This document shows positions 29,718-35,453 of a stretch of 64,000 nt of DNA, one piece after another. Position numbers and translations under genes: made by a program. Each line of letters begins with the position of its first letter. Position 1 is the first letter of the stretch. Below the pieces are notes generated by a model. That model was not told the DNA's origin, searched no databases, and saw only the letters and a program-made list of their open reading frames with translations. The stretch is from Nitrospinaceae bacterium (GTDB taxonomy: Bacteria; Nitrospinota; Nitrospinia; Nitrospinales; VA-1), in assembly GCA_021604505.1 (NCBI GenBank), contig BQJC01000004.1, positions 234,278 through 298,277 on the forward strand, in the 5' to 3' direction.

Positions 29718-29800
29718 AAATCCAAAATCCCCTAAATCACTTACCTTTAAGTTTAGTTTAGCCATGCCCACAAAAATCATTATAAGGGAACTTTCAACTG

Positions 29801-29829
29801 TTGGCCCATATTGTCAAAAATGTTATAAT
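29801..29829 (+). promoter_or_regulatory. Probable sigma-70 promoter of the OLD nuclease-helicase unit
   Basis: TTGGCC (29801-29806) and a perfect TATAAT (29824-29829) are separated by 17 bases, about 170 bases upstream of the OLD-family gene and following it in orientation. The remaining 170 bases are an A/T-rich leader. Confidence 0.5.
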
Positions 29830-29999
29830 AGTTGATATGTCCACAGCCTAATGCCCTTTTAGCCGTAAGCTTTATAGTGCGTTGGATTAAAGGTGAAAAA
29901 CTCAAATTTTGTGTGGAACAGTTGCAATGGAAAAGCAGGCGTTTAGTTTTACTTCGATCGCAATTTCTAGAAATCGAAAACTATTGAGGAACAAAAAAG

Positions 30000-31568
30000 T
30001 TGGTAAAATTCATTAAAAAACTAAAGCTTCATAACTTCAGGCGTTTTCGCGATCTTACTATCGATTTCGATGAACACATGAACTTACTCATCGGGGACAA
30101 CGAGTCTGGAAAAAGCTCAATTCTCCAATCGCTCGATCTGGTAATGAGCGGAAGCCGAAGCAAGGTGGAAACCTTAGGTCTAGAGAACCTAATCAATACT
30201 GACACAGTCAATGAGTTTCTTGCGAGCAACAAGTCCTACAAAGACCTTCCTGTGATGTGGGTTGAGGTTTATCTGAACGAACAAAATAATCCTGATCTTA
30301 ATGGACGAAATAACACCAAAAAACTTGATATTGATGGCTTAAAACTTATTTGTGAGCCTATAGATGACTACGGAAAGGAAATCGAAGATATCCTGAAGGA
30401 GGAGGAACCCAATTTTCCTTTCGATTACTACTCGATCAAATTCAAGACATTTTCGGATGAGCCCTACACAGGATATCGTCGATTCATAAAGCACCTGTTG
30501 CTAGATGGATCACAGATTAACAATGAATACGCAACGCGTGAATACGTAAAAGAAATGTATCGGGCAAAAGTAAAAGCTAAAGAAAAAAATAAGCACCAAC
30601 ATGAATACAGAAGCCACAAAATAAAATTCCGGGACAATGTTTTGTTTGATTTGAACGACCAACTCCAAAGTTATAAGTTTTCGGTTGCGACCAATACTAA
30701 ATCCAATTTAGAAACTGATTTAACGATCATCGAGGAGGACATACCAATCGAAAACAAAGGGAAAGGTCGCCAGTGTTTCATTAAGACTGAATTCGCCCTT
30801 CAACGGAGCAGTGCTATAAATCCACTTGATGTTCTACTCCTTGAAGAACCGGAAAATCACTTAAGCCACACAAATATGAAAAATCTGGTCAATATGATTG
30901 CGGAGGCAAAGGATAAACAGGTAATTGTGACCACACATAACAGCCTGATATGTACGAGACTGGATCTTAGAAAGGCGATCATGCTAAATAGCTCAGGGGG
31001 TAAATCCGCAACGCTAGGCCAACTTTCGAAGAGAACAGCCAGTTTCTTCATTAAAGCACCTGACAACAATGTCCTCGAATTCATCCTTTCAGAAAAGGTT
31101 ATTCTTGTTGAGGGGGATGCAGAATACATCCTGATGGAAGCGTTATTCAAGAACACTACCGGAAAAGAGCTTGACAGTTCAAACTTTCATGTAATTTCAG
31201 TGGGAGGTACAAGCTTCAAAAGATACCTTGAACTCGGGAAGTTATTGAACATCAAAACAGCCGTCATCCGTGATAACGATGGTGATTTTCAAAAGAACTG
31301 CGTCGATCGCTACAAGGAATATGATTCGGAAAATGTAAAGGTTTTCTCTGAGAGCGATGACACGCTGAAAACTTTCGAGATTTGTATGTACAAAAAAAAT
31401 AAAATTGTGTGCGATAAACTGTTTGCCACTAAGGACATCAAATCGTCACCACAGGAATTTATGCTAAACAACAAAGCTGAGGCTGCGTTTCGACTACTGG
31501 AATCCGATTCAGCTGAATTGATTGCACCTGAATACATAAGGAATGCGATTGAGTGGATAATCGAGTGA
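30000..31568 (+). CDS. OLD-family ATPase/TOPRIM nuclease, GajA-like
   Basis: A 522-residue protein. An ABC/SMC-type ATPase comes first: P-loop GDNESGKSS (32-40), the GKGRQ signature (about 254-258), and Walker B VLLLEEPENHLS (278-289) with TTHNS afterwards. A C-terminal TOPRIM nuclease domain (about 360-440) has LVEGDAE (acid Glu371) and RDNDGD (Asp425 and Asp427). This is the arrangement of OLD nucleases and of GajA, the DNA-cutting subunit of the Gabija defence system. The start is TTG at 30000, with AGGA a few bases upstream. Codon and base use are visibly A/T-rich compared with the neighbours, as in transferred genes (24 of 60 bases G/C at 31201-31260). The helicase gene overlaps its 3' end by 16 bases. 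Confidence 0.87.
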   Translation: MVKFIKKLKLHNFRRFRDLTIDFDEHMNLLIGDNESGKSSILQSLDLVMSGSRSKVETLGLENLINTDTVNEFLASNKSYKDLPVMWVEVYLNEQNNPDLNGRNNTKKLDIDGLKLICEPIDDYGKEIEDILKEEEPNFPFDYYSIKFKTFSDEPYTGYRRFIKHLLLDGSQINNEYATREYVKEMYRAKVKAKEKNKHQHEYRSHKIKFRDNVLFDLNDQLQSYKFSVATNTKSNLETDLTIIEEDIPIENKGKGRQCFIKTEFALQRSSAINPLDVLLLEEPENHLSHTNMKNLVNMIAEAKDKQVIVTTHNSLICTRLDLRKAIMLNSSGGKSATLGQLSKRTASFFIKAPDNNVLEFILSEKVILVEGDAEYILMEALFKNTTGKELDSSNFHVISVGGTSFKRYLELGKLLNIKTAVIRDNDGDFQKNCVDRYKEYDSENVKVFSESDDTLKTFEICMYKKNKIVCDKLFATKDIKSSPQEFMLNNKAEAAFRLLESDSAELIAPEYIRNAIEWIIE

Positions 31569-32584
31569 TACTGGCCGTGGCTGGGTCTGGGAAAACCTCG
31601 CACATCATAGACTCACTAAAATCCTCAGGGCGATCATTGGTGGTGACGTATACGGAGAATAACTATAAGAGCCTTCGTAATCGGATAACCGCTAAATACG
31701 ATGGTATGCCAGGGCGTGTTCGCCTGTATACCTACTTTTCGTTTCTTTATACGTTCTGTTTGAGGCCTTTTTTGGGTGATGAATTGGGATTACGCGGAAT
31801 CAATTTGAATGAGCCACCAAAGCATACCCGTACAACCAAAAGAACTGAAATTTCCTATTATTTGGATAAAAACCAAAGGCTGTACTACAACAGAATGGCA
31901 CTATTGCTAAACAAAAAGGAATTGATTCCAGATGTTAAGCATAGACTAACAAAGTACTTCGATAGTTTTTTTGTCGATGAGATTCAGGATTTTGCAGGGC
32001 ACGACTTCAACTTCTTGTCAGATATTGCCTTAGCAGACGTATGCACATTGCTGGTAGGTGATTTTTATCAGCACACTTATAACACCAGTTGTGACGGCAA
32101 CGTCAATAAGAATCTATACAATGATCTGTCGACCTACAAGAACAGGTTAAAAAGACAAAGATGTGACATTGACGAAACGTCACTCAGTAAAAGCTACCGG
32201 TGCAGTCCAACCGTTTGCGATTTTGTAAGTCAGAAAATTGGAATAGAAATCGACAGCCACCGGGACGATGAAACAATATTTGAGTATGTCGATAGTCAGG
32301 CTCGGGCTGATCAACTGTTTTATAAAGCCGACATCGTTAAACTGTTTTATCAATCGCACCAGAAGTATCCTTGTTATTCGGACAACTGGGGAGCATCAAA
32401 GGGCATAAATAGCTATGGTAGCGTTTGCGTAGTATTGAATAACAATACCGACAAGCTTTACAAAAATGCCCAACTGGCATCGCTTGCCCCCATGACAAAA
32501 AATAAACTATACGTTGCATGCACACGATCAAGGGGGGATCTTTATTTGGTACCAGAAAAGTACTATCGCAAATATAAAACTTAA
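31553..32584 (+). CDS. Short UvrD-like SF1 helicase, GajB-like
   Basis: A 343-residue helicase starting GTG at 31553. It carries the SF1 motifs in order: Walker A AVAGSGKTS (about 8-16), motif II VDEIQD (141-146), motif III-like VGDFYQHTY (168-176), motif IV SYRCSP (214-219), motif V-like SKG (about 282-284) and motif VI YVACTRSRGDLYLV (320-333). It overlaps the OLD-nuclease gene by 16 bases, the arrangement of gajA-gajB. GajB proteins are usually about 490 residues, so this one seems to lack most of the extra 1B and 2B domains. It is not obviously truncated, since all core motifs and a normal stop are present. Unwinding activity is therefore uncertain. Confidence 0.8.
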   Translation: MDNRVILAVAGSGKTSHIIDSLKSSGRSLVVTYTENNYKSLRNRITAKYDGMPGRVRLYTYFSFLYTFCLRPFLGDELGLRGINLNEPPKHTRTTKRTEISYYLDKNQRLYYNRMALLLNKKELIPDVKHRLTKYFDSFFVDEIQDFAGHDFNFLSDIALADVCTLLVGDFYQHTYNTSCDGNVNKNLYNDLSTYKNRLKRQRCDIDETSLSKSYRCSPTVCDFVSQKIGIEIDSHRDDETIFEYVDSQARADQLFYKADIVKLFYQSHQKYPCYSDNWGASKGINSYGSVCVVLNNNTDKLYKNAQLASLAPMTKNKLYVACTRSRGDLYLVPEKYYRKYKT

Positions 32585-32698
32585 TGCTGTTTTAGTATTT
32601 CGGTAAAAATTCAACCGTCCGCTTTTGTCCAACAGCAGACTTTTTTAAGCGTCTGCGGTGCATTCTTCTGCGCAGGTCTCATTTCTGAGAGGTGCCCC

Positions 32699-34024
32699 AT
32701 GTTGAGAATCCATATTTTTAGATCCCTGTTTGCCAGCGCAATGCTATTGCTTGCGTCGAGTGTTGCTTCTGGGTCTTCGATCCAATCGGACATTGCAGGC
32801 GATTATGGGTATTTGAAAGATTTTTATACGGATCTGCACCGACATCCCGAACTTTCCTTCCATGAAAACCGAACCGCTGAAAAAATTGCTGATGAACTTC
32901 GATCCTCAGGGTTCGAAGTCACTCACCCGGTCGGAGGCACCGGGCTGGTCGGCGTTCTGAAAAATGGCAAGGGTCCGACGGTGATGCTTCGCACCGATCT
33001 CGACGCGCTTCCGGTGAAAGAGCAAACGGGACTGCCTTACGCCAGCACCCGGCAAGTGATCGACGACCTGGGAAAAACCGTCGACGTCATGCATGCCTGC
33101 GGGCACGACGTTCACATGACCGTGTTCGTGGGCACGGCCCGCCAACTGGTGCGCTTGAAGGACCGGTGGCAGGGCACCTTGATTCTGGTGGGGCAGCCCG
33201 CTGAAGAGCGCGGCGCGGGAGCGCGGATGATGCTGGAGGACGGCCTGTTTGATCGTTTTCCCCGGCCCGATTTTAATTTGGCCCTGCATGTGTCTCCGGA
33301 CCTGCCCGTGGGGACGGTCGGCTACACCAAGGGCTATGCCTTCGCCAATGTGGACTCGGTCGATATCGCCGTCCACGGGATCGGCGGGCACGGCGCCTAT
33401 CCGCATAGAACCAAAGACCCTGTGGTGCTGGCGGCTAAAATCGTCCTGTCCCTGCAGACGCTGGTTTCCCGCGAAGTGTCGCCTCTCGACCCGGCAGTGG
33501 TCACCGTGGGGTCGATCCACGGCGGCACCAAACACAATATTATCAGCGACCGGGTCGATCTCCAGCTCACCGTAAGATCGTATTCCAACGAAGTTAAAAC
33601 CCAGCTGTTGGAGGGAATCAAACGCATTGCCCTTGCGGAAGCCCGCGCTTACGGCCTGCCGGATTCGCTGTTGCCGACGGTGAAAATAAAAAACGAAGCC
33701 ACCCCCTCGTTATACAATGACCCCCAGTTCACATCGCGGATGGTGGATGTCTTTGAGCGGACGTTTGGAAAGGAGCGGGTCACGGCAATGCCGCCGGTGA
33801 TGGGCGGTGAGGATTTTGCGCGCTATGGGCGGGTGGAACCCAAAATCCCGAGCCTGATGTTCCGGCTGGGTGCGGTTGACAGCGCCCGGTTGGCGAAAGC
33901 AAAAGAGAAGGGAGAGCAATTGCCTTCCCTCCACTCGCCGTTTTTTGCGCCCGTGCCCGAACCGACGATTAAAACCGGGGTCCTGGCGATGACTTCCGCC
34001 GCTCTCGAATTGTTGGCAAAATAG
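32699..34024 (+). CDS. Secreted M20-family amidohydrolase
   Basis: A 441-residue hydrolase of the M20D group (N-acyl-amino-acid or hippurate amidohydrolase type). It has a signal peptide (about 1-25, ending ASGS), then LHRHPELSFHE, the dimetal motifs DLDALPV, HACGHDVH, PAEERGAGARMM and GGEDFARYG, and a dimerisation segment with GGHGAYPH. It removes acyl groups from N-acylated amino acids or related amides; the substrate is unknown. Export to the periplasm is less usual for this family. It starts 114 bases after the helicase stop, where base composition returns to G/C-rich (37 of 60 at 33001-33060), so it is probably not part of that unit. Confidence 0.88.
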   Translation: MLRIHIFRSLFASAMLLLASSVASGSSIQSDIAGDYGYLKDFYTDLHRHPELSFHENRTAEKIADELRSSGFEVTHPVGGTGLVGVLKNGKGPTVMLRTDLDALPVKEQTGLPYASTRQVIDDLGKTVDVMHACGHDVHMTVFVGTARQLVRLKDRWQGTLILVGQPAEERGAGARMMLEDGLFDRFPRPDFNLALHVSPDLPVGTVGYTKGYAFANVDSVDIAVHGIGGHGAYPHRTKDPVVLAAKIVLSLQTLVSREVSPLDPAVVTVGSIHGGTKHNIISDRVDLQLTVRSYSNEVKTQLLEGIKRIALAEARAYGLPDSLLPTVKIKNEATPSLYNDPQFTSRMVDVFERTFGKERVTAMPPVMGGEDFARYGRVEPKIPSLMFRLGAVDSARLAKAKEKGEQLPSLHSPFFAPVPEPTIKTGVLAMTSAALELLAK

Positions 34025-34101
34025 CAGGACATCCCACGCGGATTCACCCGAATAAATGAATTCCCGTTAAATAAGTGAATTCACCCGGCGTTTTTGGGAG
34101 C

Positions 34102-34791
34102 TTACCGCACTTTCGGTTCCAGTTTATCTGTTCCAGCTTTTTGAAGGGGGATCGTTTTTAACATTTCGTTCACCTCTTTTTTGCAAGGGTAAACTATTAT
34201 CGAAATCAAAGATGTTATTTGGCCCGCCTGTATGACTCTCAAATGGGTTCGGTGCACCTTTTGACCCAGCATTTCCGTCCAGTTTTTTCCACGAAACGAA
34301 ATCGTTTTTCCGCGGACTTTCACGGCAAATTTCTGCGGTTCATCGACTTCTACGGTAAACGGTTTCTTCAGGTTATTAGCGTCGATATGATAGGTTTGGA
34401 AGGCGCACATTTTGAGATCGTCATAAGAATCCACCAGAAACGACCTTAAATATTCCGTCAGGGATTTGACTTGAGAATCGGAAAATTGACTGAAAGCTGG
34501 CATGGCGGTTCCTTGTAAACCTTCATGGATAGCCTGTTCCATGCGAATGGTGGGCATCCGTTTCATCTCTTCATAATCTTTAAAGTCGCGGGGCTTATTT
34601 TTTAGTCCGCTGGCAAGAGGACCGTCACCTTTACCCTTGTCCCCATGGCACACGGCGCAACCATTTTCTTGATACAGCTTTTTGCCCTCCTTAACTAATA
34701 TTGGAGTCGGCAGGTATGTATATTTTTCCTTTTGGGTTGCCGCAAAAGCGATGGAGGGAATGAAAAGCAAAATAAAAATAAATTTGATCAT
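34102..34791 (-). CDS. Periplasmic cytochrome c with an extra C-terminal domain
   Basis: A 229-residue exported protein. A signal peptide (1-18, AFA) precedes a monohaem cytochrome c domain (about 30-120) with CAVCHGDKGKGDG as the haem-binding motif and MPAF supplying the axial methionine. The remaining 110 residues have no haem motif. They look like a small beta-rich domain with SFRGKNW, KVHRTHLRV and a single cysteine in YPCKKE, and I do not recognise them. The cytochrome part resembles the cytochrome-c domains of the right-edge gene (both have PRDF/PRNF after CxxCH). It lies alone, so the electron partner is unknown. Confidence 0.85.
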   Translation of the reverse strand: MIKFIFILLFIPSIAFAATQKEKYTYLPTPILVKEGKKLYQENGCAVCHGDKGKGDGPLASGLKNKPRDFKDYEEMKRMPTIRMEQAIHEGLQGTAMPAFSQFSDSQVKSLTEYLRSFLVDSYDDLKMCAFQTYHIDANNLKKPFTVEVDEPQKFAVKVRGKTISFRGKNWTEMLGQKVHRTHLRVIQAGQITSLISIIVYPCKKEVNEMLKTIPLQKAGTDKLEPKVR

Positions 34792-35249
34792 TAATGGTTC
34801 CTTTTTGGGGTTCAGGTTATGGAATTTGTGGAAAGCCTTGTTGACGCATAGGATTGCTATGACAACGTATTCCCCTATGGAATTGTCCCAGGGTTAATTT
34901 TATGAGAATCCCTCATACACTTTTTTATGCAATTTCCGTTGTGGTGAGCCACTGATCGGAAAATCGCTTATTCTTTTGTGTGTTTGGGGTTAAATCAGGA
35001 CTTTAAGAAAGGGAGGAAAAGCAAAAAAGATTCCAAATGTATTGGATTGATTTTCGGACAGTTCTTTGAAGACCAATAATATCAGTATACCTTACTTATT
35101 TAAAATTTGCAGTGTTTTCTTTCCTCAAAAAGTGGACCGATTGAGGGAGGTAAAAAGCAAAGAGATGCTTTCTGCTAAACTTTCCTGCTGATATTGTCCG
35201 ACAGCCAGCCTTTGTCGCGTCTTCGGAGAATTCGCCCTCCGCGCAGGAG
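34792..35249. other. Intergenic region with a repeat core
   Basis: 458 bases with no credible gene. The left part is A/T-rich and probably contains the promoter of the cytochrome gene, which I cannot pin down. The right end carries the second copy of the 21-base repeat core (35229-35249). Confidence 0.4.
35229..35249 (-). repeat. Second copy of the 21-base repeat core
   Basis: AATTCGCCCTCCGCGCAGGA plus one G matches 19490-19510 at 19 of 21 positions. It lies directly after the minus-strand stop of the zinc-ribbon gene, as the first copy lies close behind ribH. Confidence 0.45.
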
Positions 35250-35453
35250 TCAATCCTGGAAAGTGAACATGGAGACCAGCAACGCCACGACCAGCGTGAT
35301 GAATAAAATCCCGATCACGTTCATGACCCAGCCACTGCCACCGAAGGTCGGGTAATTGGGGGTCTCCGGGTCGGTCGGCGTCCCGCAATGCGGACATTTT
35401 TTCAATTCTTCAGAAATCTCTTTTCCGCATTCACGGCACTCTGAACCACTCAT
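35250..35453 (-). CDS. Small zinc-ribbon membrane protein
   Basis: A 67-residue protein. A treble/zinc ribbon ECRECGKEI...KCPHCGTP (two CxxC pairs, about residues 5-25) is followed by a linker and one membrane helix (about 42-62). The start is placed at the ATG at 35453 because GGAGA lies seven bases upstream; the longer reading frame to 35489 has no such site. Small zinc-ribbon, single-helix proteins are common and of unknown function. It is followed by the repeat core. Confidence 0.7.
   Translation of the reverse strand: MSGSECRECGKEISEELKKCPHCGTPTDPETPNYPTFGGSGWVMNVIGILFITLVVALLVSMFTFQD

Follow-up and report, generated by a model that had tools for sequence, protein, structure and literature searches.

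The window, the whole 64,000-nucleotide stretch of Nitrospinaceae contig BQJC01000004.1 that we analysed, carries two genes which, as the original prediction described them, encode an OLD-family ATPase/TOPRIM protein and a UvrD-like helicase and overlap by 16 bases. We annotated the following features at the locus:

30000–31568, + strand: gajA-type gene, 522 aa, OLD-family ABC ATPase plus TOPRIM nuclease (PADLOC, Pfam, AF2, Foldseek)
31553–32584, + strand: gajB-type gene, 343 aa, putative minimal SF1 helicase/translocase with 1A, 1B and 2A and no 2B (PADLOC, AF2, motif spacing)
31553–31568, + strand: 16-base gene overlap, read in two frames as GajA ...WIxE-stop and GajB MDxRVI
29740–35250, no strand: genus-variable cargo interval, between a conserved rhomboid gene and the conserved segment leading to cinA, which holds the pair in the window genome
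29801–29829, + strand: promoter-like site 171 bases ahead of gajA, TTGGCC-17-TATAAT with TG (a match to the consensus only, such matches being not above the number expected from shuffles)

The gajA-type open-reading frame spans 522 codons from a TTG start with GAGG just 5' of it, the gajB-type frame spans 343 codons from a GTG start, and both are free of internal stops. Gabija families ranked first in PADLOC for both proteins, which agrees with the expectation that Gabija is their nearest kin: GajA matched PDLC00102 over residues 4–519 (E = 5.2e-111) and GajB matched PDLC00148 (model length 369) over residues 1–333 (E = 9.6e-49), whilst Pfam detected AAA_15 and OLD-like_TOPRIM in GajA, and Viral_helicase1 (best) or UvrD in GajB. 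GajA contains Walker A (GDNESGKS), EEPENHL, TTH and the TOPRIM residues E371, D425/D427 and K492, all invariant across 67 relatives. In GajB we identified motifs I (AVAGSGKT), Ia (VTYTENN), II (FVDEIQD), III (VGDFYQHTY), IV (SLSKSYRCS), V (NWGASKG) and VI (LYVACTRSRG), with Walker A, DExQD and motifs III–VI nearly invariant among relatives. The claim that all ATPase, TOPRIM and SF1 motifs are visible therefore holds for GajA and for helicase motifs I–VI, but not for the Q motif, as GajB begins only nine residues ahead of the Walker A lysine motif and so has no counterpart of the Q-motif segment at the N-terminus of UvrD/PcrA.

Both proteins are shorter than those of the founding system of B. 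cereus VD045, as had been noted (helicase 343 vs. 494 aa, nuclease 522 vs. 578 aa). The AF2 model of GajA has a mean pLDDT of 89.8, and in a Foldseek search of solved structures the B. cereus GajA chains were its top matches (8sm3_A, E = 5.8e-18; TsOLD, 3.2e-16), a match of fold with a TM of ~0.5, a large rmsd and no detailed superposition behind it. TOPRIM E371 and K492 lie 121 aa apart, in a range of 116–128 aa in 67 short-clade sequences vs. 156–165 aa in seven long pairs (L118–L124), which belong to another PADLOC Gabija group (PDLC04168/04173) and represent long GajB rather than the founding system. By this spacing and the models, ~40 residues, most of the helical insert that other class 2 OLD proteins have in TOPRIM, appear to be gone from the window GajA.

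The GajB model, built from a 77-sequence alignment, is complete (mean pLDDT 94.2) and has the full 1A–2A core on which the original prediction depended; in Foldseek a Gabija complex chain ranked third, level with PcrA. In B. cereus GajB the subdomains Nacc (1B) and Cacc (2B) occupy residues 73–155 and 314–416 (PMC10681800). In the window model, a helical insert (residues 61–137) follows the third strand and precedes Walker B; it matches the B. cereus 1B in place and size, but at the position of 2B there are only ~10 residues between strands. Spacing follows the same pattern: the motif IV arginine and motif V lysine are 67 aa apart (66–72 in the short clade) vs. 222–242 in the seven long GajB, and Walker A and Walker B are 127 aa apart vs. 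104–110. Taken from AlphaFold models and motif spacing rather than superposition, this suggests that GajB retains 1A, 1B and 2A without 2B.

Linkage was assessed in 97 loci, consisting of the window, 8 loci from plasmids and one phage record, and 88 from genome and viral scans. A search for the short helicase beside OLD nucleases, as originally proposed, found the two together in all 97, the gajA relative adjoining gajB on its upstream side each time. At ~47% protein identity, the overlap is exactly 16 bases in 92 of the 97 loci; the five exceptions are an overlap of 14 bases (Xanthomonas), two of 19, in one of which the helicase is broken, and two loci with a split gajA. The overlap encodes GajA ...A-x-W-I-x-E-stop and, in the −1 frame, GajB M-D-K-R-V-I, and all 92 loci have an ATG, GTG or TTG start in the same position. 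An overlap of this kind had been described as typical of gajA-gajB, which is borne out in the short clade (92/97 loci) but not in the four long-GajB pairs with clear starts, where the genes overlap by 8 or 11 bases or are separated by a 9-base gap; by these junctions, a 16-base overlap is not characteristic of Gabija as a whole. Its constancy would point to a dual-coding constraint and translational coupling. Chance overlap was ruled out, since the overlap is common to 92 of the 97 loci, as was the occurrence of the two genes apart, given their pairing in every locus. GajA and GajB distance matrices are correlated (r = 0.79 over 65 loci; the highest value in 1000 permutations was 0.14, none reaching the observed r), indicating that the gene pair travels as one unit.

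Relatives of the pair are widespread. In PLSDB a helicase relative was present in 1,810 plasmid records, in 1,751 of which the match spanned at least 80% of the helicase (best identity ~44%), and many of the carriers are typed conjugative. A scan of 84,980 species genomes recovered at least 80 loci with relatives; the matches listed include Proteobacteria, Bacteroidota, Clostridia, Acidobacteria, Nitrospirota, Spirochaetes, one planctomycete, Cloacimonadota, Ignavibacteriae and candidate phyla, the nearest among them being a deltaproteobacterial MAG (68%) and a Gallionella MAG (67%). In viral contigs, an alignment-based scan found eight relatives and a single-sequence scan found none. We used a copy of the pair from an E. 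coli plasmid to search 5,426 complete E. coli genomes at the DNA level, and 769 (~14%) matched, 732 of these over at least 80% of the pair, at 780 places on plasmids and 10 on chromosomes. The helicase measures 325–360 aa in 85 relatives. A Xanthomonas plasmid pair matched the sister models PDLC00098 and PDLC00140 at 1e-298 and 8e-193, a search with PDLC00078 brought back mostly the same short clade, and 50 genomes searched with the intermediate GajB model PDLC00120 gave no match.

Among 141 immediate neighbours of these relatives, in a qualitative scan without a control set, PADLOC (1e-20) identified type I and III restriction, HamA (Hachiman), JetD, Cas13-like ApeA, QatD, pPIWI and several predicted defence candidates, and Pfam identified integrases and resolvases. 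In the Listeria locus, a phage record (L025, 2029–7119), the short gajA-gajB has a CBASS cyclase and a 2TM effector on one side and, directly upstream, a second, long GajB-like helicase of 793 aa, such that two GajB types adjoin. On five enterobacterial plasmids (L022, L024, L027, L028, L029) vapBC lies ~73 bases upstream of the pair; at a coverage of at least 80%, a vapBC-plus-pair query recovered 1,581 records and the pair alone 1,585, a co-occurrence that is only suggestive, 78% of the longer query being the pair itself.

In the window genome the pair is A/T-rich, as the original prediction stated, with a G+C content of 40.2% vs. 49.5% in the rest of the window, below 99.4% of same-size windows. 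Its third-position G+C is 45% vs. 58–78% in most neighbours, a nearby cytochrome c gene also having 46.5%. The 60 relatives searched yielded no close helicase, and the other 76 genomes of the phylum no close GajA; a search of the phylum with the long GajA model gave no match either. One family member (G062, locus L126) encodes a 552-aa GajA, 31% identical, at a contig end where the partner gene is cut off, and another encodes a still more distant OLD protein. The flanks are conserved across the genus, with NACHT-rhomboid genes on the upstream side and, downstream, the region that leads to cinA. Two congeners hold other genes in the rhomboid–cinA interval, among which G001 has a probable toxin-antitoxin pair together with a reverse-transcriptase-like fragment, and a third (G003) has unrelated genes after the rhomboid gene, a contrast that covers the rhomboid side. 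The pair is absent from this site in the three congeners examined, each of which has other cargo, so no exact empty site was drawn. The 73 bases at 29862–29934, just upstream of gajA, are 76% identical to G001 cargo-site DNA near the reverse-transcriptase-like fragment, and are possibly the relic of an older insertion. Low G+C, absence from the relatives searched, the variable cargo site and the presence of relatives on conjugative plasmids support the probable horizontal acquisition that had been proposed for the pair.

We are fairly confident that the pair is a horizontally acquired, two-gene antiviral system of Gabija type, in a short form that is widespread and so far undescribed. Its phage protection, complex formation, DNA target and trigger we infer, and the mechanism we propose is modelled on relatives. 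An OLD-type GajA oligomer would supply the TOPRIM nuclease, which its ABC ATPase domain would gate; the short GajB would be an ATP-driven single-strand translocase or end sensor, which may dock on GajA through the retained 1B and license GajA to cut at exposed phage DNA ends. In UvrD/Rep-type motors 2B is a regulatory subdomain, and its loss would leave GajB without a brake of its own, with activation left to contact with GajA. In B. cereus, GajA docks on the 1B of GajB, a contact needed for defence (PMC10781630), and in vitro GajB shows no activity as a helicase (PMC10681800). Once 2B is removed, Rep unwinds as a monomer, an indication that 2B is autoinhibitory (PMC6158625), and PA14 Gabija attacks phage genome ends unoccupied by RecBCD (PMC12407980).

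Alternatively, a solitary class 1-like OLD nuclease and an unrelated minimal SF1 helicase may have been assembled convergently, into a pair that shares the workings of Gabija but not its descent. GajA is class-1-like in size and without the class 2 TOPRIM insert, Viral_helicase1 is the best Pfam match of the helicase, and there is no sequence-level link to the B. cereus proteins, whose chains were not reached in sequence searches of the PDB. However, several long GajA models score 110–114 bits vs. 81 bits for the PADLOC Old model, long GajB models outscore other SF1 helicases (PDLC00120, 66.7 bits; NCBIfam HelD, 21.6; UvrD, 19.5), and the top structural matches of the GajA model are Gabija GajA chains, such that we regard convergence as unlikely.

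We consider it distinctly unlikely that the pair is a competition or maintenance module of mobile elements, mainly attacking incoming plasmids or stabilising the element that carries it, with phage defence as a secondary role at most. Such a role would fit the E. coli distribution (780 plasmid vs. 10 chromosomal places), the many PLSDB carriers typed conjugative and the position of the pair ~73 bases downstream of vapBC on five enterobacterial plasmids, yet phage defence is itself commonly plasmid-borne, the window copy and most of the at least 80 genome-collection loci are in ordinary genome assemblies, and several of these loci lie near restriction, CBASS or other phage-defence genes. That an ordinary Gabija has been truncated and is decaying, to which the reduced length of both proteins could be attributed, is scarcely credible given the intact catalytic residues, open frames, complete high-confidence models and equal helicase length in 85 relatives; the last rules out truncation of the pair, and the original view of a minimal rather than truncated GajB stands.

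A short Gabija-type system being the preferred reading, its rank within Gabija can be considered. As the 2B subdomain and TOPRIM insert of the founding system were not found, the pair is a variant of Gabija, not a standard member. We suggest tentatively, with rather less than even confidence, that it is a distinct subtype, in which the GajB 2B and GajA TOPRIM insert were lost together, the 16-base overlap is constrained and the motor is regulated by contact with GajA rather than by its own 2B. The subtype envisaged originally has a basis in anatomy (no 2B, short TOPRIM, fixed overlap), but databases already contain the short form: it is frequent on plasmids, and the two top-scoring PADLOC GajB models are only 365–369 positions long, placing it, unnamed, inside the Gabija model set. 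In the searchable literature, a coverage outside which most subscription journals fall, we found no description of a 2B-less GajB and no short-clade member tested against phage. RefSeq labels the pair only as ‘ATP-dependent nuclease’ and ‘helicase UvrD’. A natural and very common GajB without 2B but with the GajA-docking 1B narrows what the helicase must do, and the short pair offers a smaller complex for study; if it is indeed a distinct subtype, it would allow activation of GajA by GajB to be tested in a natural system free of 2B. Related copies, mostly plasmid-borne, in ~14% of complete E. coli genomes mean that this form could matter for phage sensitivity there.

Compared with known systems, the window pair has the gene order of B. 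cereus VD045 Gabija (GajA 578 aa, GajB 494 aa; PDB 8SM3), an OLD ATPase-TOPRIM protein and then an SF1 helicase, with profile matches to Gabija over most of both proteins. It shares the TOPRIM E/K residues, the predicted GajA fold, the GajB motifs and the retained 1B. Unlike B. cereus GajB, with its four subdomains (1A, 1B, 2A, 2B), the window GajB appears to have no counterpart of 2B (B. cereus residues 314–416). In B. cereus GajA the TOPRIM residues are E379 and K541 (PMC8136825), 162 aa apart vs. 121 aa here, ~40 aa less, and the helical insert of ~50 aa reported as a conserved feature of class 2 OLD proteins (PMC10568477) appears to be missing, as judged from spacing rather than superposition. 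The solitary class 1 OLD protein of T. scotoductus (PDB 6P74) has the domain plan and size of the window GajA, but no helicase partner, and is a weaker structural match than Gabija GajA. The PADLOC models for GajA (PDLC00102/PDLC00098) and GajB (PDLC00148/PDLC00140) match near full-length at similar lengths; they are labelled simply Gabija, and no subtype or domain-loss description was found. Finally, the enterobacterial IncF-type plasmid pair (e.g. NZ_CP107129.1, annotated as AAA family ATPase and DNA helicase UvrD) has the same genes, the same lengths and the exact 16-base overlap at 43–48% protein identity, and is plasmid-borne downstream of vapBC, whereas the window copy occupies a genomic cargo site.
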